64,000 nt of DNA from Candidatus Hydrogenedentota bacterium (GCA_029556545.1 JAKQEQ010000192.1:62001-126000); one strand, 5' to 3'. Positions 35,954 to 46,259 are shown, counted from the first letter of the stretch. Notes: generated by a model from the letters alone, not told the origin. Numbers and translations: made by a program.

Positions 35954-37621
35954 CTACAGGGTGAGTTCGCCCGCGGCGGCCACCGCCGCATTCACCACGA
36001 CCGCCGCGTCCGCCTCGTCGTCGCTCAGCGGCGTAGCCAGTCCCGCCGCGCGCGCGTAGTTCGCCGACGCGAGACACGCCCGCACCCGCGCCGCAACCCC
36101 GTCCGCGCCTTCCGCTCGACACAACGCCACCACCGAGCCCGCTATGCCCGCCCCGGTCAACGACGCGCCCAATGCGCCGCCGGCAAGGGCGGCGTCCACG
36201 AGGGCGTCAAGCGCCGGGCTACTCGCGCCGTAGTCGCCCGGGCATTCCGCGAGAGGCACGGCGGCGGCGGCCCAACTGTCGAGTATGGAGTCACCGACCT
36301 CCCGCGAGAACGGCCTGCCCTCCCGCGTAACGACCCGGTCGCCGTCATGCCCGATGCTCATCAGCCTTCCCGCGGCAACGTAGTCTCCGCGCACGAGCAG
36401 GTCGAAGAATACGCGCGCCCGATCCGATTCCGCCAAGGCGAACAGGAGCGGCCCACGCAGCGGCACGCCACGCGGCCGCTCCGCGGCGTCCATCATGCCG
36501 AAATACCGCGAGAACGCCGCGTCGAATTCGTTCGGGTCGCACTGCATGCGAAGCGTTCCCAAGTCCACTTCGAGAGGAATGCCGCGCAACGCCTCGTAGA
36601 CCGCCGCGGGGCCGCCCAACCGCTCGGGCGTGATGCGCGCCAGCCGGTCCAGGCTCTCGACGAACGCGGCGTCATGCCCCCGCCGCCGCAGTTCGCGGCG
36701 AAAGATATAGAGGGCCAGGGAATACGCAAATCGGTTGCGTGTATAGTCCGCCAGCGCGGCCCCGCTCAAGTTGCGGCGTGTGTGCGAGTGGATGACGAGG
36801 ACGCGCACGTCGTCGGGGAAGGCCATGCGGCGGATGCCGGAGAGATCGAGGTCCTCGGAGTGCAAGGTGGCGTTGATGAGTTCGTTGCGTCCGCCGAGGA
36901 TCATCGCGCCCTGATCGCTTGTCCCGGTGCGTGCGCCGGTGTACCACTCGGCATCTCGCACCGCGAGGATAAGCGCCTCGGGGCCCATCGCCATGCCGTT
37001 GAGGCCTAACACGCCGAGCAGGATGGCCGTTGCGAGCGCGTGGGAAGAACTGAGCGCCGCGCCGCGCGGGATGTCGCTCCCGACGCACGCGCACACGCCG
37101 CACAACGGTTCACAGCCGGCTTCGTATTGCGCACGCAGGACCGCCCCGCGAAGGTAGTTCTCCCAAGAGCCCTTGCGGGAATCGACCAGCGCCCGGACCT
37201 CAGGCAACGTGATGTAGTCGGCCCAAGGCCGCCCCCATGCGGCCTCGCGTACCGCCCCGGCCAGGGACACCCCCGCCTCGTCGAATTCCGGCTCGATATT
37301 CGTGAACGTACAAGTCCCCTCGGGCATCGGCCCGGCAACGACGACAGTCTCGCGCTGATGCGTCATGAGGTTGAGATAACCGCCATGGGTGTCCACGTGC
37401 ATGCCGCGCAGATTGATGCGTGCCGGGGCGCGAAAGACGCGGACGGGCTGGTCTCCGAAGCGCGCGACAAATGCGCACAGCGTGCGCAGCAACAAGTCCA
37501 AGCGATCATCGAGCACACTCGCCACGTCGCCGTAGGTTCGGGTCAATGCGCGCCGTGTATCGCTGTCCGGTTCGGTCAGACGCCGCATCCACGCGCTCGC
37601 ACATAGCCGGTCACCCTGCAT
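35954..37621 (-). CDS. GHMP kinase, galactokinase-like, long form
   Basis: A 555-aa sugar kinase, longer than ordinary galactokinase (about 380-400 aa). Motif 1 is APARINLRGMHVDTHGGYLN (galactokinases have GEHTDYNGG; the Asp is kept, the Glu is replaced by Gly-Met). The ATP-binding motif 2 is DIPRGAALSSSHALATA and motif 3 is GASLTGAGIAGSVVAL. The N-terminal 60 residues and two insertions account for the extra length. It probably phosphorylates the anomeric carbon of a hexose or uronic acid. It sits between the VWA operon and the lyase-like gene, with 68- and 27-base gaps. Confidence 0.85.
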   Translation of the reverse strand: MQGDRLCASAWMRRLTEPDSDTRRALTRTYGDVASVLDDRLDLLLRTLCAFVARFGDQPVRVFRAPARINLRGMHVDTHGGYLNLMTHQRETVVVAGPMPEGTCTFTNIEPEFDEAGVSLAGAVREAAWGRPWADYITLPEVRALVDSRKGSWENYLRGAVLRAQYEAGCEPLCGVCACVGSDIPRGAALSSSHALATAILLGVLGLNGMAMGPEALILAVRDAEWYTGARTGTSDQGAMILGGRNELINATLHSEDLDLSGIRRMAFPDDVRVLVIHSHTRRNLSGAALADYTRNRFAYSLALYIFRRELRRRGHDAAFVESLDRLARITPERLGGPAAVYEALRGIPLEVDLGTLRMQCDPNEFDAAFSRYFGMMDAAERPRGVPLRGPLLFALAESDRARVFFDLLVRGDYVAAGRLMSIGHDGDRVVTREGRPFSREVGDSILDSWAAAAVPLAECPGDYGASSPALDALVDAALAGGALGASLTGAGIAGSVVALCRAEGADGVAARVRACLASANYARAAGLATPLSDDEADAAVVVNAAVAAAGELTL

Positions 37622-37689: not shown

Positions 37690-39465
37690 CTACTCAGTGT
37701 AGCTGGTCTGGAATCCGTATTGCGCGCTGAGTTCGTGAAGTTGCCGCAGCATTTCGGGTTGCTCGCCGACGCGCGAGATTTCGCCGATAATGTCGTAGCC
37801 CTTCGCGAAGGCCCAACTCCGCGCGATCTCGCGGTCGGCCCCGCGCGCCTTGCTCAGGTCGGCCCGAAAGATCACTTCCTTGCGCTTCTCCCCCGCCGTT
37901 CCGACGAGGCGCATAACAAACTCGCGGTCCCGCGCGGGGTCATAGCGACCGTAGACCGTCACGCCTCGGCCCCGGTAGAAATCAGGGATCGCCTTTGGGA
38001 ACACCATCGTTTCGTCGATGCGTCCGTAATCGGCCCGCGGGTCGAGCAGGAGCGGTTCCTCGATGCGCGCCAAGAAACGCGGCAGTTCGGCGGGAATCTG
38101 TTCGAGATTATCGATGACATGGGATTCGCCCCGGTTACGATAAGCGAGCAAGTCGAGAAGATAGCGGTTCACCGTGCGGCCGCCGCCAAAGGCGAAGATA
38201 GTGTTGCGCCGGTTGTCCGCCGTGAGCGCGTTGATGATGGCGCGGCTGTCGCGCATGCCCGTGGTGGGCCGGCCGTCGGAGATAAGGACAATGATGCCCG
38301 GCGCGCCGGGGCGCGGGGTGTTCCGGATCACCGATTGCATCGCCTGGAAGACGTCTGTTTTTCCGCTCGATTGCTGGCCGCGAAGAAACTCGGCCGCGGC
38401 GGCAGTGTTTTCGCGCGTGGCGGGCACGTGCGCGGGCCGGAAGAACGTCGGTGTATCGCGAAAGAGAACGATGTTGAAGTTGTCCTCAGGGCGGAGTGTG
38501 CCGATGACCTCGGAAAGCCCCCGCGCGGACAGGTCGAGTTTGCGCTGGCTGATGCTGCTCGATGCGTCGAGCACGAAAGTGATGTCTCGGGACAGGGGCG
38601 CGATGGCCGCGCCGTGCCTCGGTGCGATACGCAAGCGGAAGAAACCGAGCCGATCACCCGGCGACTGATAAACGTCAAGGCCGATATCGAGCATGTCGTC
38701 CAGGAACTCGTATTGCGTCTGTCGCTGCCTGCGGACCGCCTCGACCACCGGCGCGGTTTCGATGACCACTTCGCGCGGAACCGGAGCGGGCGCGGGCGTC
38801 TGGGCCTTCGCCGCTTGCGGCATCGGCAGTTCCTCTCGCGGCGGCGCCTGGGCTTCCGGCGCCGGTTGCGGTGCCTCACCCGGCGCCGGCACGCTGCGCG
38901 CCAGCAGACTACGCGCACCGGACGGGAGTTGCAGCGGCGGCACGTCTCTTGCCGCGGCAAGGTCCCGCAAGACGGGCATGGCGTCGTCGTCAATCACCGT
39001 GACGGGGCTCGGCCGCACGACGCGGCGCGGCGTTTGCAGTTCCCGCCGCGCGGCTTCCTGGCCGATTTCGACGATCCGCGCGTCCATCTTGCGTAAGAGC
39101 GCGGCGTCGGGTTCGAGGGCGTGATCGCGCGTCACGGCGTCCGAGGCCAAGCGCGCATCGAGGTCGGGCGTGGGCGCGGGCGGCCGGTCGCCGCCGCCAT
39201 CGAACACGAGCGACTCGCTGGCGCCAGTCACGAGGTCGCGGATTTCGCCGGGGCGGGAGGTCAGGCGAGTAGCGGACCGCTCGAATACGGGCGTTGCTTC
39301 GGGGGAAATGTCATGGAATCGCACGGGATAGCGGCGGCGCAAGTCCTCGACAGCGGCATTGACGCGCAGCAGCGTAATTCGGGGCGCGGCGTAGTACCAG
39401 AACACGAAATGCGCCGCGAGCGATACCAGCACGCAAAAGGCCAGTATGGCGCGGCGGCTGACCAT
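37690..39465 (-). CDS. TonB/TolA-like anchored von Willebrand factor A protein, last gene of the ExbB-ExbD-TPR operon
   Basis: A 591-aa protein. Residues 6-25 form one transmembrane helix containing Ser15-Leu-Ala-Ala-His19. TonB (Ser16/His20) and TolA carry the same Ser-x3-His, which is needed to contact ExbB/ExbD or TolQ/TolR. A long periplasmic stalk follows, with a proline/alanine-rich segment at about 191-230. A VWA domain with the MIDAS motif DASSS (Asp300, Ser302, Ser304) and VLISDGRPTTGM comes next, then about 180 C-terminal residues. No TonB C-terminal domain is present. It starts four bases after the TPR gene. I infer that proton motive force is used to move a metal-dependent adhesion domain; the ligand is unknown. 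Confidence 0.85.
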   Translation of the reverse strand: MVSRRAILAFCVLVSLAAHFVFWYYAAPRITLLRVNAAVEDLRRRYPVRFHDISPEATPVFERSATRLTSRPGEIRDLVTGASESLVFDGGGDRPPAPTPDLDARLASDAVTRDHALEPDAALLRKMDARIVEIGQEAARRELQTPRRVVRPSPVTVIDDDAMPVLRDLAAARDVPPLQLPSGARSLLARSVPAPGEAPQPAPEAQAPPREELPMPQAAKAQTPAPAPVPREVVIETAPVVEAVRRQRQTQYEFLDDMLDIGLDVYQSPGDRLGFFRLRIAPRHGAAIAPLSRDITFVLDASSSISQRKLDLSARGLSEVIGTLRPEDNFNIVLFRDTPTFFRPAHVPATRENTAAAAEFLRGQQSSGKTDVFQAMQSVIRNTPRPGAPGIIVLISDGRPTTGMRDSRAIINALTADNRRNTIFAFGGGRTVNRYLLDLLAYRNRGESHVIDNLEQIPAELPRFLARIEEPLLLDPRADYGRIDETMVFPKAIPDFYRGRGVTVYGRYDPARDREFVMRLVGTAGEKRKEVIFRADLSKARGADREIARSWAFAKGYDIIGEISRVGEQPEMLRQLHELSAQYGFQTSYTE

Positions 39466-39469
39466 GACA

Positions 39470-41800
39470 TCAGGTCTCCCCGAGCGCGGCCAAGGCCTCG
39501 CGCGCCTGTGCCGCCTGCGGTTGTTCCGGGTAATCGGCGATTAGCTCTTCGTAGGTGCGTTTCGCCTGATCGGGACGGCCCAGCTTGTCAAAGAGCCGCG
39601 CCGCGCGCAACAGCGCCTCCGGCGACAGTTCGGCATGGAGGAACAAGATCGCCACGCGCATATAGTTGCGGGCCGCGCGCTCGAAGTCTTCGCGCGCCTC
39701 GTGGATTTCCGCCACGCGGAAGCACGCCCGCGCCGCGACGTCGCCGCTGTTCGCGTTGCTCGCCTCTTCGTAGCGCTTCAGCGCCTCGTCCGCGTCCCCT
39801 TTCTTCTCGTACAGCGCCGCCATGCGGTAACGCGCTTCGACCGCCGCGCCGCTCTTCGGCGCTTCCTTCTCGACGCGCTGATATAGCGCGAGCGCCCCGG
39901 CCGCGTCGCCGTCGCGTTCCTGACACTCCGCCAGACGGAAGACAATGCGCTCGGGGTTCGGATACTCCGGCGCTTTATCGAGCAGCGCGCGGAAGGCGCG
40001 CGCGGCACGTGCCCACAGTTCCTGTTCGTAGTGGCGCTCGCCCAGCCATGCGTAAGCCTTCTCGTTCAAGGCCGCATCCGGGTATTCGGCAATGAGCCGA
40101 TCGAACAATTCCGCGGCGCGGTCGTAGTCCTTGTTCTCGTAGTAGGCCACGGCGAGACCGCGCAACGCCTGCCCGGCCAGCGGCCCCTCCGGGGCCTTGT
40201 CGAGCGCCGCCTGATAGAGTTCGATAGCCCGGAGCGGGTCGCCTTCCTGGCGCATGACGCAGTCGGCCACGCGATAAGCCGCTTCGGCGGCGCGCGGGGT
40301 GTCGCCGTATTTTTCGAGCAGCTTGCGAAATGTTGCTTCACTCGCGGAGTAATCCTTCATGTTGTAGTACGTGATGGCCAGTCGATAGAGGGCGTCTTGC
40401 TCGATGACGGGATCGGCGGCGTTTTCAAGCAGCTTGCGATACTTGTCCACGGCGTCCTGGAAAGACCGCGCGGAGAACTGCGCGTCGCCGGCGCGCAGCA
40501 TGGCCTCCATCGTGAGGGGGTGGTCCGGGTATCGGCGCACGAATTCCTCGAACATTGCGGCGGCCTGGTCGGCCAGCCCGAGTTGTTCGAGGCATTCGCC
40601 CGACTTGTAGAGCGCCTCGGGGCCGTAATCGCTGTCGGGGTATTTCTCGGCAACCAGCCGAAACTCCTGGTGCGCGTCCTCGTAATTCCCCTCGGCCACG
40701 AGCAGGGTACCCAGCAGGAACGCGGCGTCGCCGACCAGCGGAGACTCCTTGTGGTCGCGAAGGAACGCCATGGTTTCCGCCTTCGCCTCGACGGCGCGCC
40801 CGCTCAAATGCAGAACCCACGCCGCCTTGTAACGCGCGCGCGCGGCGAATTCAGAATCCGCGCCTTCGCCCGCGACGCGACGATACAGCGCCAGCGCCTC
40901 GTCGTAGCGCCGCTGCTGCTGGAAGGCGTTCGCGCGCAGGTACAGCAGCCCCGACGCATAGGGGGTGTCCGGGTTCGCGTCGAGGAAGCGCGCCGCCGCG
41001 ACTTCAGCCTCCGCGAGTTTCCCGGCGTGGTACAGCGCCCAGGCATAGCCATAGTCGGCCCGCCGCGCATACGGCGAATCCGGGAACTCCTTCTTCAGTT
41101 GCTCGTAGGCCCCTACGGCGGCGCTGAACCAGCCGAGCTTATCATAGATTTCGGCGGCGCGAAAGCGCGCCTCCATGCGGAGCGCCTCCTCGGGGGCATG
41201 CTGCGCGGCCTCCGAGAACGCCACCGCCGCGTTTTCGAGGTCGCCGCGGCCCAGGTGCACATAGGCGAGCTGGTATTGCGCGTAGGGCGCGAGCGCGTCG
41301 CCCGGGAATCGTTCGGCCACCGCCGCGAGGGCGCGCAACGCGTCGTCGTACTGTCGATTATCGAGCCGCGCGCGACCGAGGAAATAAAGGGCGCGGACGC
41401 ACAGATCGGGGGGTGCGTCCGGCCCGGTCAAGGGCTCAAACGCGTGGACCGCTTCCTCGTGCCGTTGTAGCAGGTAGAGCGCCTCGCCCCGGCGCTGCGC
41501 CGCGCGCAGCCGGTCCGGGAACTCGAGTTCCGGCGGCATCACCCGTTCGAAGGCGGCAATCGCCTTTTCGTATTGCTCGCTGGCGAAGGCCGCCTCGCCC
41601 AGGCGATACCACGCCGTCGGACCGTAGGACCCCGTCGGGTAATCGTGGAGATACTTCTCGTATTCCTCGACGGCCTCGGCGAAGAACCCGCGCTGGAACA
41701 GGCCGTCGGCGAATTCCATCCGCGTCTGTTCCGGCGTCTGGGCAGCCGCGGCACAACACAGGCACAGCACGACCATGCCATATGAGAAGGACTGCTTCAC
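39470..41800 (-). CDS. Large periplasmic tetratricopeptide-repeat protein (YbgF/CpoB- or BamD-like repeats)
   Basis: A 776-aa protein with a signal peptide (SFSYGMVVLCLCCAAAAQ) and about 18-20 TPR units filling the rest. Most are of the outer-membrane type, with spacing like YGPEALYKSGECLEQLG...A...FEEFVRRYPDHP. GTG at 41800 is chosen because it overlaps the ExbD stop as GTGA and gives the signal peptide; the frame to 41872 lies in exbD. TolQRA systems have a smaller periplasmic TPR protein (CpoB/YbgF). This one probably plays a comparable bridging role between the ExbBD-driven protein and outer-membrane or wall partners. Confidence 0.88.
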   Translation of the reverse strand: MKQSFSYGMVVLCLCCAAAAQTPEQTRMEFADGLFQRGFFAEAVEEYEKYLHDYPTGSYGPTAWYRLGEAAFASEQYEKAIAAFERVMPPELEFPDRLRAAQRRGEALYLLQRHEEAVHAFEPLTGPDAPPDLCVRALYFLGRARLDNRQYDDALRALAAVAERFPGDALAPYAQYQLAYVHLGRGDLENAAVAFSEAAQHAPEEALRMEARFRAAEIYDKLGWFSAAVGAYEQLKKEFPDSPYARRADYGYAWALYHAGKLAEAEVAAARFLDANPDTPYASGLLYLRANAFQQQRRYDEALALYRRVAGEGADSEFAARARYKAAWVLHLSGRAVEAKAETMAFLRDHKESPLVGDAAFLLGTLLVAEGNYEDAHQEFRLVAEKYPDSDYGPEALYKSGECLEQLGLADQAAAMFEEFVRRYPDHPLTMEAMLRAGDAQFSARSFQDAVDKYRKLLENAADPVIEQDALYRLAITYYNMKDYSASEATFRKLLEKYGDTPRAAEAAYRVADCVMRQEGDPLRAIELYQAALDKAPEGPLAGQALRGLAVAYYENKDYDRAAELFDRLIAEYPDAALNEKAYAWLGERHYEQELWARAARAFRALLDKAPEYPNPERIVFRLAECQERDGDAAGALALYQRVEKEAPKSGAAVEARYRMAALYEKKGDADEALKRYEEASNANSGDVAARACFRVAEIHEAREDFERAARNYMRVAILFLHAELSPEALLRAARLFDKLGRPDQAKRTYEELIADYPEQPQAAQAREALAALGET

Positions 41801-42261
41801 GGCGTTTGCCGGCGCTCCTCTTCGGGTTTCAACGCCGCGAACGCGACGTCTTGGATGTCCACCTTGCTGCATGCATCAAGCACTTCGATGGCCCGGCCGA
41901 GCGTCGCCTTCCGGTCGCCCCGGATGATAACCGACCCGCCAGGGAAGTACTTGGCGACGCGTTCGAGCAGCGACTGCAGCGCCGCGACGTCCATCACCCG
42001 CTCGTTGACGACGATGTCGAGCGTCTTGCCGTCCACCACGCGGGCATCCTCGGGCCGCAGCAGGTTGATGATAATCTCGCCGGGCATCCGCTCGCTGGCG
42101 ACGGCGGAGTCCGCCGTGGGTAGATCGACGTCGATTTCGCTTTCGAGGTGGGCGTAGACCGCCGTCCACATGAAGAAGACAAGGGTCAGAAAGATAATGT
42201 CGATGAGCGGCGCCATCGGGATGGCGTCGGCTTCCTCGTTAGGTCGGCGTCCGAACTTCAT
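41797..42261 (-). CDS. exbD: ExbD/TolR-family proton-channel subunit
   Basis: A 154-aa protein with a short cytosolic N-terminus, one transmembrane helix (APLIDIIFLTLVFFMWTAVYA) and a periplasmic domain. Asp21 in PLID is the proton-carrying residue essential in ExbD, TolR and MotB. The periplasmic part (DGKTLDIVVNERVMDVAALQSLLERVA, GSVIIRGDRKATLGRAIEVLDAC) matches the ExbD/TolR fold. The start overlaps the ExbB stop as ATGA and the stop overlaps the TPR start as GTGA, so the channel and TPR protein are coupled. It energises the Ser-x3-His helix of the VWA protein rather than a TonB, as far as this window shows. Confidence 0.93.
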   Translation of the reverse strand: MKFGRRPNEEADAIPMAPLIDIIFLTLVFFMWTAVYAHLESEIDVDLPTADSAVASERMPGEIIINLLRPEDARVVDGKTLDIVVNERVMDVAALQSLLERVAKYFPGGSVIIRGDRKATLGRAIEVLDACSKVDIQDVAFAALKPEEERRQTP

Positions 42262-43052
42262 GACTCGGGACTCCGCGCCATCAGTTCGACCAGCTCGCTC
42301 GCCTCGGCCTCGACCTCCGCGAGAATCTTCACGACGCGGCCGCGCAGGTAGTAGTAGATGGCCATCGCCGGGATTGCCAGTATCAACCCAGCCGCCGTGG
42401 TGACCATCGCCATCGACACGCTGTAGGCCACCGCGATACCCTTCACCTGCGCGTCGTCGAACGCGATGGTGCTGAACGCCTGCATCATCCCCCACACCGT
42501 GCCGAGCAGCCCGAGCAAGGGCGCGATGGTCGCGATGTTGTTCAGGTACGATATCTTCTGCCACAAGCCCGCCGCGCCGCGCTCGCCCTCACTCTCCATC
42601 GCGTCCTGGATGACGTAGCGGTCGTGCCCCGCCATCTGCAAGCCCGCGCGCAGCACGTTAGCGAGCAGTTCGTCCCGGCCCTCGCACATCTGGTACGCGC
42701 CCCGCAGGTCGCCCGCGCGGACCTGCGCGTGCGCCCGCTTCACCAGCGTCGCGGGCGCTTCACGCCGCGGCGTAACTGTCAGTAGCAGATAGAGCGCCAA
42801 TACCAGGGCGATGAAACCCAACCCGGCGATCACCCACAGGATCGGCCCGCCCTGCCGCACCATCATCTCGAGGGTCAATTGCTGCGCCGGCTGCCGCGTC
42901 CCCGGGATCGGCGGCACAGGGTCCACTGCGGCCGGCGGCGCTTCGATGCCCGCCTCGGGCGCCGCATCCGGCGGCTCTTGCCCCCAGATTTGGGGCGCCA
43001 GAACCAGAGAAGTCAGAAGAATACCGGCAACGAGATGAGATTTGTTGCACAT
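42258..43052 (-). CDS. exbB: MotA/TolQ/ExbB-family proton-channel subunit
   Basis: A 264-aa protein: a signal peptide (MCNKSHLVAGILLTSLVLAPQIWG), a Pro-rich spacer (residues about 25-60), then three transmembrane helices. The family block SYLNNIATIAPLLGLLGTVWGMMQAF is followed by VKGIAVAYSVSMAMVTTAAGLILAIPAM, which carries the conserved Thr residues facing the proton path. With ExbD it forms the inner-membrane motor. The ATG at 43052 gives the signal peptide; a longer frame reaches 43172 without a ribosome site. It is the first gene of the four-gene operon and divergent from the C25 protease gene (276-bp gap). Confidence 0.92.
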   Translation of the reverse strand: MCNKSHLVAGILLTSLVLAPQIWGQEPPDAAPEAGIEAPPAAVDPVPPIPGTRQPAQQLTLEMMVRQGGPILWVIAGLGFIALVLALYLLLTVTPRREAPATLVKRAHAQVRAGDLRGAYQMCEGRDELLANVLRAGLQMAGHDRYVIQDAMESEGERGAAGLWQKISYLNNIATIAPLLGLLGTVWGMMQAFSTIAFDDAQVKGIAVAYSVSMAMVTTAAGLILAIPAMAIYYYLRGRVVKILAEVEAEASELVELMARSPES

Positions 43053-43328
43053 TATGCTTACCTTTCGCAATCTCGAAGGGCGCCTCGAATAGAAGCACTT
43101 CCCATACACAACCGCTCCCTGAGTCCACGCCCCGCATCGCGTATTATTCCCACTATCGGGGCAAAGTTCCACTATATCAACGGCTGCACGGGCGTTCTTC
43201 CAGGAAACAGTACCTCGTCATGGACGGTCGAGCACGTCTCATCGTCATCACTCGGAATAGCGGTGGGTCCGGCGAGTGTTCCATCCTCTGAAGGGTCGGA
43301 AAGGCGTACGGCAAGAAAGGGTTGGTGT

Positions 43329-46259
43329 ATGCAGCGGCATTCGCTCCTGGGGGTATTCTTTGTTTTTTCCACGTTGACGTTGATCTTGTTCGGGGGAACC
43401 GCGAACGCGGTGTATCACAGCGCCGATACTACCACGGATTTTGAAATCGGCCTGACGGAACTGCTTCGGGTGATCCAGTTCTATAACTCGGGCGGTCTTC
43501 ACTGCCAGGAAGGCACGGAGGACGGGTTCGCCCCCGGCCCCGGCGACGAGGGCTGCGCCGGGCACGACAGCGACTACAGCACGCACGACTGGAGCATCAA
43601 CCTTACTGAGCTATTGCGTTTGATACAAATGTACAACGCGCGGGTCTACGGGTATGACCCGACATCCGAAGACGGCTACGCGCCTGTTTTCGACCCAGAG
43701 GACCCCACCGGCACCGTCGTGGGGCAGGTGGACGCGCTGCGCGGTTACCTCGAAGGCGAGGCGGCGGCCCTGCTGCTGCCGGCGGTGCAGAAGCTGCTTC
43801 TGGACCTGCTGGCGGAGGTCGAGATCCAACTGGTGAACGACGAACTCTGCAACGCAGCGGACACGCTCGACGAATTCCTGGATACGGTGCAGTCGGAACG
43901 CCCGGCGGGCGGCGTCAAGGCGGCCAGCCCGACCATGGGCGCGTTCGACACCCTGTATGCGGACGCGCGCGCGCTTCAATACGACGCGATCGTGGCGAGG
44001 CTGGAAACCAATCCGTGCCCCGGCCGCGAGCGTTGGGGCAAGGGCGGCGACGTCGAGGATCCGGAAGGCGACGCGCAGAGCCTTTCCACGAAGTTTGATT
44101 TCGGCGCGCTGCGCTTCTCGAGCATCAAGGCGGGCGACGGCTCGGTCTATATAGGACTGCTCCTGCCCGCCGTGCAGAAGAATTCGAGCACGCCGGGGAC
44201 GCCGGACATCCCGGTGGTACGCCGCCTCTTCGCGGCGCCGCCGGGCGCGTTTGTGACGGTGGAGTGCAGGACGACCACGGCGGAGACCATTCGATTAAAC
44301 GTGATGCCGAATCAGCCGGACCCGGTGGACCAGGACCCCGACGACCCGCCGTATCCAGATCGGGAACTCTTCGCCGACCATCCGTTCACGCTCGATGAAA
44401 CCGTGTACGGGACCGACGCCAAGTTCCCGCCGGACCCGTGCCGCATCTTTCCGCTGGGACGAAGCCGGGACCTCGAGATATACCAGATCGAGGCGTTTGC
44501 CGGGCAATACAACCCCGTATCGGGCGAACTGGTCCTCTTTGCGGACTTGTCCGTCGATATCCAGTTTGCGAATGGCCCGGACGGATTCCTTCCCGAATCG
44601 GCGTTCAACCCCTTCGAGAGCCGGCGAGACCTCTATGTCGGGGCGGTGATTAACGCGGGGATCGTCGAGTCATTCCCGCCGATTATCGGGTTGCCGCCCG
44701 CGTTGATCGGCGAGGAATTGATGATCATGACGCACCCGAACTTCCGGGACGCTGCGGACACGCTCGCGGCCTGGAAGCGGGAGAAGGGCATCGCCACGAA
44801 CGTCTACGAATGCGGCACGGGCTCGGGCATCGCGGGCCGCACCACGGCGGCGGAGATCGACGCCTTTATCGAGAGCCACCACGACACCGCGCTGATAAAG
44901 CCGTCGTATATACTGCTGCTTGGCGACGCGGAGTACATCTCCCCCTTCCTGCGCAACCGCTCGAGCAATGACCCGGAGGAGGACCGCACCATCGGTACGG
45001 ACTGGCCCTACGCGATACGGACCTATCCAGGGCAGGAGTTCCCGACTATCGTGCCGACGTTCGCGGTCGGGCGCATCCCGGTCGATACGCTGGCGCAGGC
45101 CAATGTCGTGGTCAACAAGATCATCGACTACGAGAAGAACCCGCCGGGCAGCATCTTCGCCGACGCGTTCTACAAGAACTTGATGTTCGCCGCGGAGTTC
45201 CAGTGCTGCCTCACGAACGTGGCGCAGGACGGCCGTGCGCAACGTACTTTCACCGAGGCGGCGGAGTTCGTGCGCGCGCCGCTGGCGGCGCAGGGCTATA
45301 CGGTGCAGCGCATCTACCGGGAAACGGTGGACACCGGCTGCGCCTCTTGCGATCCGCCGCGACCCGCCTATACCGGCGATCCCACGCCCCGCCGCTATTA
45401 CGACGGCACGCCGTTACCGGCGTCCATCGGGCCGGGCTCGGGGTTCTCCTGGAACGGCACGACGACTCAGATCACCAGCGCGTGGAACGAAGGCCGCTTC
45501 CTAATTCTCCACCGCGACCATGGTTGGCCGGGCGGCTGGGGCACACCCAGCTTCAACTCGTCGAACGCCGACAGCCTGACCAACGGCGCGCTGTTGCCGG
45601 TGGTGTTCAGCATCAATTGTTCGAGCGGCCTGTTCGACAACGAAGTGTTCCCGGACGAGGGCGCCACGGTCGGCGGCGTGTATTTCGCCGAGCGGCTTCT
45701 GCGCAACGCGAACGGCGGCGCGGTCGGCGTCATCGGCGACACGCGGGTAAGCCCGAGTTGGGCCAATTCCGCACTCACGCGCGGCTTGTTCGACGCCATC
45801 TGGCCGTCGGTCGTGCCGTCGTTCGGCAGCAATACGCCGAAGCGCCGCCTCGGCGACATCCTCAACCACGCCAAGCTCTATCTCGCGACGCAGATCGGCA
45901 CCACCTTCATCGGGTACAGCGAACTGCTGAACGAACTTCTGCTTTACCACGTGCTCGGCGATCCGACGCTCGAAATATGGACCAAGGACCCGAACATCAT
46001 CACGCTGCCGGGCAACCTGATCATTTCGACGGCTTCCAGACTGGGCATCCAGTTCAATTATGCCCAGGTCGGCGCGACCCTGAGCGTCTTCCAGGACTTG
46101 GGTAACGGCCCAATCCCGATAGGCCGGACCGTGGTCGGCGCGGACGGCGGAGCCTTTGTCGAGTTCTTGAACGAACCGAGCGCGGGGTCCATCTTTGTGG
46201 CCGCCAGCATGGATGACGCCGTCGCAGCGTCCTTTGAATTGAACCTCGTTCTCGACTAA
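43329..46259 (+). CDS. Secreted C25 (gingipain-family) cysteine peptidase with tandem LTELLR repeats
   Basis: A 976-aa protein with a signal peptide (residues 1-27). Two tandem modules of about 40 residues follow (32-70 and 80-120), each with (I)xLTELLRxIQxYN then EDGFAP/EDGYAP. They look like dockerin or EF-hand-type repeats. A propeptide-like region and the C25 domain follow, with catalytic His731 in LHRDHGWPGGWG and Cys764 in FSINCSSG. Their 33-residue spacing equals that of gingipain R (His211/Cys244). The last 80 residues form an Ig-like domain, without a recognisable T9SS sorting tail. The ATG at 43329 follows AAGAAAGGG. Substrates are unknown; it is divergent from the ExbB operon. Confidence 0.87.
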   Translation: MQRHSLLGVFFVFSTLTLILFGGTANAVYHSADTTTDFEIGLTELLRVIQFYNSGGLHCQEGTEDGFAPGPGDEGCAGHDSDYSTHDWSINLTELLRLIQMYNARVYGYDPTSEDGYAPVFDPEDPTGTVVGQVDALRGYLEGEAAALLLPAVQKLLLDLLAEVEIQLVNDELCNAADTLDEFLDTVQSERPAGGVKAASPTMGAFDTLYADARALQYDAIVARLETNPCPGRERWGKGGDVEDPEGDAQSLSTKFDFGALRFSSIKAGDGSVYIGLLLPAVQKNSSTPGTPDIPVVRRLFAAPPGAFVTVECRTTTAETIRLNVMPNQPDPVDQDPDDPPYPDRELFADHPFTLDETVYGTDAKFPPDPCRIFPLGRSRDLEIYQIEAFAGQYNPVSGELVLFADLSVDIQFANGPDGFLPESAFNPFESRRDLYVGAVINAGIVESFPPIIGLPPALIGEELMIMTHPNFRDAADTLAAWKREKGIATNVYECGTGSGIAGRTTAAEIDAFIESHHDTALIKPSYILLLGDAEYISPFLRNRSSNDPEEDRTIGTDWPYAIRTYPGQEFPTIVPTFAVGRIPVDTLAQANVVVNKIIDYEKNPPGSIFADAFYKNLMFAAEFQCCLTNVAQDGRAQRTFTEAAEFVRAPLAAQGYTVQRIYRETVDTGCASCDPPRPAYTGDPTPRRYYDGTPLPASIGPGSGFSWNGTTTQITSAWNEGRFLILHRDHGWPGGWGTPSFNSSNADSLTNGALLPVVFSINCSSGLFDNEVFPDEGATVGGVYFAERLLRNANGGAVGVIGDTRVSPSWANSALTRGLFDAIWPSVVPSFGSNTPKRRLGDILNHAKLYLATQIGTTFIGYSELLNELLLYHVLGDPTLEIWTKDPNIITLPGNLIISTASRLGIQFNYAQVGATLSVFQDLGNGPIPIGRTVVGADGGAFVEFLNEPSAGSIFVAASMDDAVAASFELNLVLD

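Follow-up and report, generated by a model that had tools for sequence, protein, structure and literature searches.

Gene content of the locus

The window, by which we mean the whole 64,000-nucleotide stretch of DNA analysed here, lies within contig 63 of a 6.1 Mb Hydrogenedentota genome. One tight operon on its minus strand (43052-37690) encodes, in this order, an ExbB protein, an ExbD protein, a 20-TPR protein and a VWA protein. As read from the sequence, the ExbB and ExbD genes overlap at an ATGA, the ExbD and TPR genes overlap at a GTGA, and a 4-base gap separates the TPR and VWA genes. This is the arrangement that the first-pass annotation had described, junctions included, and Pfam supports all four members. 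The features lie at the following positions of the window:

42258..43052, minus strand: ExbB/TolQ-like motor subunit, 264 aa (PF01618 MotA_ExbB, E 9.9e-30)
42813..42818, minus strand: Gly79-Phe80 in TM1 of ExbB, equivalent by alignment to E. coli ExbB Ser34-Val35 and TolQ Ser28-Ile29
41797..42261, minus strand: ExbD/TolR-like subunit, 154 aa (PF02472, E 3.4e-20)
42199..42201, minus strand: Asp21 of ExbD, the proton-carrying position
39470..41800, minus strand: periplasmic TPR protein, 776 aa, GTG start, a signal peptide followed by about 20 TPRs
37690..39465, minus strand: predicted VWA transducer, 591 aa (Pfam VWA_3, 2.1e-14)
39379..39456, minus strand: TM helix of the VWA protein, residues 4-29, with Ser15 and His19 (AF2, high confidence)
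39310..39330, minus strand: D-box/motor-box strand YPVRFHD, residues 46-52 (alternating pattern, 52/54 orthologues)
38776..38895, minus strand: Pro-rich stalk segment, residues 191-230 (from sequence; low pLDDT)
37702..38718, minus strand: VWA head module, residues 250-588 (mean pLDDT mostly >90)
38554..38568, minus strand: MIDAS motif D300-x-S302-x-S304
35954..37621, minus strand: GHMP (galactokinase-like) kinase, the next gene after the VWA gene (PF10509, PF08544, PF00288)

In 30 of 43 loci the GHMP kinase gene is the direct neighbour of the VWA gene, in many cases with fewer than 30 bases between the two; it may be a fifth gene of the operon, although a functional link is unproven. Upstream of ExbB, a large divergent ORF (42879-46259, plus strand) looks by eye like a secreted C25-type peptidase.

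Motor subunits and TPR protein

ExbB has a signal-like N-terminus ahead of TM1, matches both TolQ and ExbB structures, and carries two threonines, T185 and T219, that are invariant in 36 orthologues. In ExbD, the Asp21 singled out in the first-pass annotation is confirmed and proves invariant in 34 orthologues. Among the NCBIfam models the two subunits score best to TolQ and TolR, in both cases below the cut-off. For the third gene, the AF2 model (mean pLDDT 92.5) contains 41 helices and bears out the earlier reading of a periplasmic protein of about 20 TPRs, and many Pfam TPR families match it (TPR_16, 4.9e-66).

Architecture of the VWA protein

The N-terminal helix of the VWA protein has the Ser15-x3-His19 spacing initially ascribed to it, but the histidine is not invariant. 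Among 54 orthologues, position 19 is Tyr in 27, His in 26 and Gln in one, and position 15 is Ser in 33, Ala in 11, Thr in nine and Gly in one, so that the conservation of both residues, to which weight had been attached at the outset, extends to just half of the orthologues in the case of His19. Residue 11, a Cys in the window protein, is Ser in most orthologues (48 Ser, six Cys).

The strand at residues 46-52 has a D-box-like pattern, that is, an alternation of hydrophobic and polar residues with prolines after it, located 26-30 residues past position 19. In E. coli TonB, His20 and Val47 are 27 residues apart according to the D-box paper, and the strand of the VWA protein thus lies at the TonB spacing. 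As a control, stalk windows beyond the immediate neighbourhood gave the pattern in at most 4/54 orthologues, versus 52/54 at residues 46-52.

The Pro-rich character of residues 191-230 was confirmed, the segment being of low confidence in the AF2 model. Within the otherwise variable stalk, residues 147-154 (window 39004-39027, minus strand) form a highly conserved RRxxRPSP-like segment, which may be a candidate binding site for the TPR protein. The head is, by its model, an inter-alpha-inhibitor/integrin-like VWA module with a conserved MIDAS; its best Foldseek match is inter-alpha-inhibitor heavy chain 1 (E 3.7e-22). The MIDAS residues named in the first-pass annotation are all present, D300 and S302 being invariant and S304 more than 90% conserved, and T370 and D397 of the MIDAS are likewise invariant among the orthologues.

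Distribution of the operon

VWA orthologues are present in 60 of the 68 genomes of the order. Wherever an orthologous locus extends far enough upstream to tell (41 loci), the gene order ExbB-ExbD-TPR-VWA is kept. Outside the order, the four-gene operon was found at four loci, in a Verrucomicrobia MAG (L171), in a Brocadiia MAG (L172) and in two genomes of another family (L198 and L199), and the VWA protein of all four carries the S-x3-H helix. Since the gene order recurs in all 41 loci and in these four, it is not a product of chance. Scanning contigs with an alignment as the query gave the relatives; a single VWA protein as the query gave none.

TM-anchored VWA proteins with S-x3-H also occur without exbBD in the stretch examined, namely in Lentisphaerae (e.g. 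L175), in a Kiritimatiellota MAG (L177, a short contig) and at L173. The expectation that VWA homologues would not routinely be found apart from exbBD is thus upheld in 41/41 loci but partly contradicted outside the phylum, and given these outgroup proteins, linkage of exbBD and the VWA gene is the rule in Hydrogenedentota but not everywhere. The remaining VWA-containing loci examined mostly encode VIT-VWA proteins, with exbBD not nearby.

Two further observations concern individual loci. Pilin-like (type IV/pseudopilin) genes lie directly 3′ of the motor-VWA operon in L198 (4782-6282, minus strand) and L199 (8658-9344, plus strand). Operons of the Hydrogenedentota type were also met under the public titles Nitrospiraceae (L128) and Rhodothermaeota (L170), which are probably mislabelled MAGs.

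Other ExbBD systems and the cell envelope

A second system (L035, 8502-10686, minus strand) consists of ExbB2, ExbD2 and a TonB-like protein of 276 aa. This protein has S-x3-H but is missed by Pfam TonB_C, and a PDB search with it returned chance matches only; orthologues of the system are found in 64 of the 68 genomes of the order. A third ExbB (L235, 5784-7349, minus strand) has as its neighbour a TonB-like protein of 310 aa, with S-x3-N rather than S-x3-H in its helix, and on another contig there is an ExbD gene with no adjoining ExbB (L034, 9442-9867). TonB_C itself was detected by Pfam in 4/68 genomes of the order and not in the window genome; however, in view of the TonB-like proteins beside the second and third ExbB, this is not a true absence. 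An exclusive TonB or TolA partner encoded elsewhere would have competed with the VWA protein for its motor, but the TonB-like proteins stand next to other ExbB genes, which leaves the ExbBD of the VWA operon without another obvious partner.

No TonB receptor plug domain was detected in the window genome, and 17 of the 68 genomes of the order have one, which argues against an ordinary nutrient-import Ton system. A BamA-type Omp85 in the window genome and OmpA domains in 68/68 genomes of the order point to a diderm envelope. A literature search for Hydrogenedentota together with TonB retrieved no papers.

Co-variation of VWA position 19 with ExbB

On the trees, position 19 of the VWA protein has switched between His and Tyr at least 5-7 times. 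When columns were ranked by how well they track this residue, ExbB79 and ExbB80 came first and second by four measures, out of 1625 variable columns across the four proteins, a pool that includes TPR and VWA-head columns unable to touch residue 19; the ExbB and ExbD columns were ranked before they were compared with contacts in known structures. ExbB79 is Ser with His19 and Gly with Tyr19, and ExbB80 is mostly Val or Ile with His19 and Phe with Tyr19. Both positions align with Ser34/Val35 of E. coli ExbB and with Ser28/Ile29 of TolQ, the latter also in the structure match; the match to the Serratia ExbB structure is three residues off, whereas the TolQ and direct MAFFT alignments agree with each other. 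By cryo-EM, TonB Ser16/His20 contact ExbB Ser34/Trp38, and TolA His22 contacts TolQ Ser28/Ile29/Trp32.

Thinning to <55% identity (18 sequences) left ExbB79 and ExbB80 first and second, and with 13 sequences they ranked third and second. In the second system, which served as a paralogue control, the TonB-like protein has His in 29/29 and its ExbB has Ser in 29/29 readable cases, so that the His/Tyr switch is specific to the VWA system. These two results weigh more than the rank probability of 2.3e-6, which assumes exchangeable columns. Fisher's test gives p = 8.7e-8 for each of the two positions but ignores phylogeny and is not taken as proof, and a tree-based independent-pairs test points in the same direction (3:0 or 2:0 for ExbB80), the 4-5 independent His/Tyr contrasts being too few for significance. 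Exceptions to the pairing of His with Ser are the window's own pair (His19 with Gly79 and Phe80) and three other His orthologues; the His with Gly/Phe seen in the window is an intermediate combination. In all operon-bearing outgroups checked, His goes with Ser and with Val or Ile, which suggests from the sequences that His/Ser/Val is ancestral.

Co-variation of position 19 with the very TM1 positions of ExbB that match the TonB and TolA contacts is strong, if indirect, support for docking of the VWA helix on ExbB, which we consider highly probable. More tentatively, and leaning slightly to the doubtful side, one could suppose that the docking code of a phylum-wide core motor has been rewritten repeatedly (His/Ser/Val to Tyr/Gly/Phe), insulating the VWA machine from the TonB-like paralogues of the same cell, and that the His deemed essential in TonB/TolA-type helices can give way to Tyr provided that ExbB co-adapts. 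In E. coli, His20 of TonB tolerates Asn, which, if right, fits a contact rather than a proton-relay role; the S-x3-N helix found in the third system fits such a role too. Nature's own exchange of His for Tyr, together with the matching ExbB changes, supplies a ready-made compensatory pair for studying helix docking, and for asking whether the His lies in the proton path or serves as a contact only.

Discussion

The operon probably encodes a motor-driven VWA transducer, in which an ExbB-ExbD proton motor serves a protein whose VWA head replaces the C-terminal domain of TonB or TolA. Such a Tol-like motor was the central proposal of the first-pass annotation; the S-x3-H helix, the D-box-like strand, the operon linkage and the co-variation with ExbB speak for it, with the correction that His19 is conserved in half of the orthologues, and the idea had already been published as a prediction. 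In this machine, a Ton/Tol-type motor, presumably of 5:2 stoichiometry, would drive the transducer; the N-terminal VWA helix would dock on TM1 of ExbB as TonB does, as the sequence co-evolution indicates; the D-box strand, to judge by its motif, would engage the periplasmic ExbD dimer; and the partly Pro-rich stalk of about 200 residues would hold the head out across the periplasm. The resemblance of the head to inter-alpha-inhibitor and its conserved MIDAS make it likely that a ligand is bound in a metal-dependent way. The best candidates for the partner at the metal site are the TPR protein of the operon, a ligand in the outer membrane or wall, or both; a ligand of the latter kind is possible but, in our judgement, not quite to be expected. 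Proton flow would then put tension on the bound partner, with a presumed role in envelope integrity or in outer-membrane-linked mechanics.

As to function, our guess is envelope maintenance first and surface mechanics second. In the former case, which is a version of the transducer explanation, the VWA head and the TPR protein would do the job of Pal, TolB and CpoB and stabilise the outer membrane during division. The near-universal presence of the system in the order (60/68), the TPR partner, the OmpA-domain proteins of all 68 genomes and the best, though sub-threshold, NCBIfam scores of ExbB and ExbD to TolQ and TolR would all be accommodated; however, Pal and TolB genes are absent from the operon, OmpA domains are generic, and a VWA fold is found instead of TolA domain III, so that we regard this role as plausible but on balance doubtful. 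That the motor works an adhesin or a gliding apparatus seems unlikely. The co-occurrence of a VWA protein with a TolQR-like motor and the integrin-like head would suit it, as would the suggestion of gliding by Williams-Jones et al. (PMC12204202), and the AglRQS motor (Agl-Glt) of Myxococcus with its VWA adhesin CglB offers a parallel. The VWA head studied here is nevertheless tethered to the inner membrane by a stalk of about 200 residues, belonging to a TM-anchored and predicted motor-docked transducer. CglB, by contrast, is a separate protein of the cell surface, a VWA lipoprotein that goes with the Glt proteins and an adhesin in its own right.

It could also be that the VWA protein plays a passive part, as a scaffold or a chaperone-like factor, and stands in an exbBD operon by chance, uncoupled from the motor. 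The TM-VWA homologues of Lentisphaerae and Kiritimatiellota, which have no exbBD nearby, would be in keeping with this, but E. coli TonB is likewise unlinked to exbBD, and both the D-box pattern and the co-variation at the TonB/TolA contact positions speak for coupling, which makes an uncoupled protein quite improbable. Still more improbable is Ton-like import through a receptor type missed by the Plug model, in which the tip that engages the plug would be the VWA head: ExbBD and the D-box are Ton-like in architecture, yet the head differs from the C-terminal domain of TonB, TonB_C was detected in just the four genomes mentioned above, and the window genome lacks the Plug domain.

A VWA force transducer is not a new idea, and the window locus is a further member of a class predicted by Williams-Jones et al. 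2025 (Mol Biol Evol msaf138, PMC12204202), who described TM-anchored vWA proteins that have an SHLS motif and a motor box and are encoded next to TPR and tolQR genes; the authors built AF3 models of these proteins and put them forward as force transducers. With these transducers (the Tichowtungia family) the window protein shares the Ser-x3-His TM helix (S15/H19), the motor box, a disordered or Pro-rich domain II, a vWA C-terminal domain and the adjoining TPR and tolQR-like genes. It differs in that the window has a single exbD, whereas a pair of tolR-like genes is described for PVC, in its stalk of about 200 rather than about 100 residues, in the Tyr that replaces His in half of its orthologues, and in lacking the Leu-Ser half of the SHLS motif (A26 and I30 in the window protein). 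The comparison with the Tichowtungia protein is by description, the Kiritimatiellota relative found here being L177. Hydrogenedentota are not on the phylum list of that study (PMC12204202); what is new here is the conservation across a whole phylum, the occurrence of single-exbD four-gene operons in other lineages as well, the variant with Tyr, and the support for docking from co-evolution, which does not depend on a predicted structure. The partners usually considered for ExbBD/TolQR-type motors are TonB and TolA. Should VWA transducers prove real, this type of proton motor would pull on a different, integrin-like kind of target across a whole phylum in which TonB-dependent receptors were detected in just a quarter of the genomes.

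Other known systems resemble the locus in part. The E. coli TonB-ExbB-ExbD and TolA-TolQ-TolR complexes share the motor subunits, the docking helix, the D-box and the proton-path Asp and Thr, but here a VWA head replaces the C-terminal domain, a 20-TPR protein is co-encoded, and the genome lacks a plug domain. The second family of Williams-Jones et al., a vWA transpore helix with tolQ only, likewise has a TM-tethered vWA and a TolQ-like protein; it was ruled out, as ExbD is present here and residues 4-29 of the VWA helix contain no Asp. The Bat operon, which has VWA and TPR proteins but no exbBD, was also ruled out by the exbBD genes of the window operon, as the first-pass annotation had argued. 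Finally, the inter-alpha-trypsin inhibitor heavy chain and the TIGR03788 VIT-VWA proteins share the VWA head plus flanking domains, TIGR03788 being the only NCBIfam match of the VWA protein and far below cut-off, but in place of their N-terminal VIT domain the window protein has a TM helix and a stalk.
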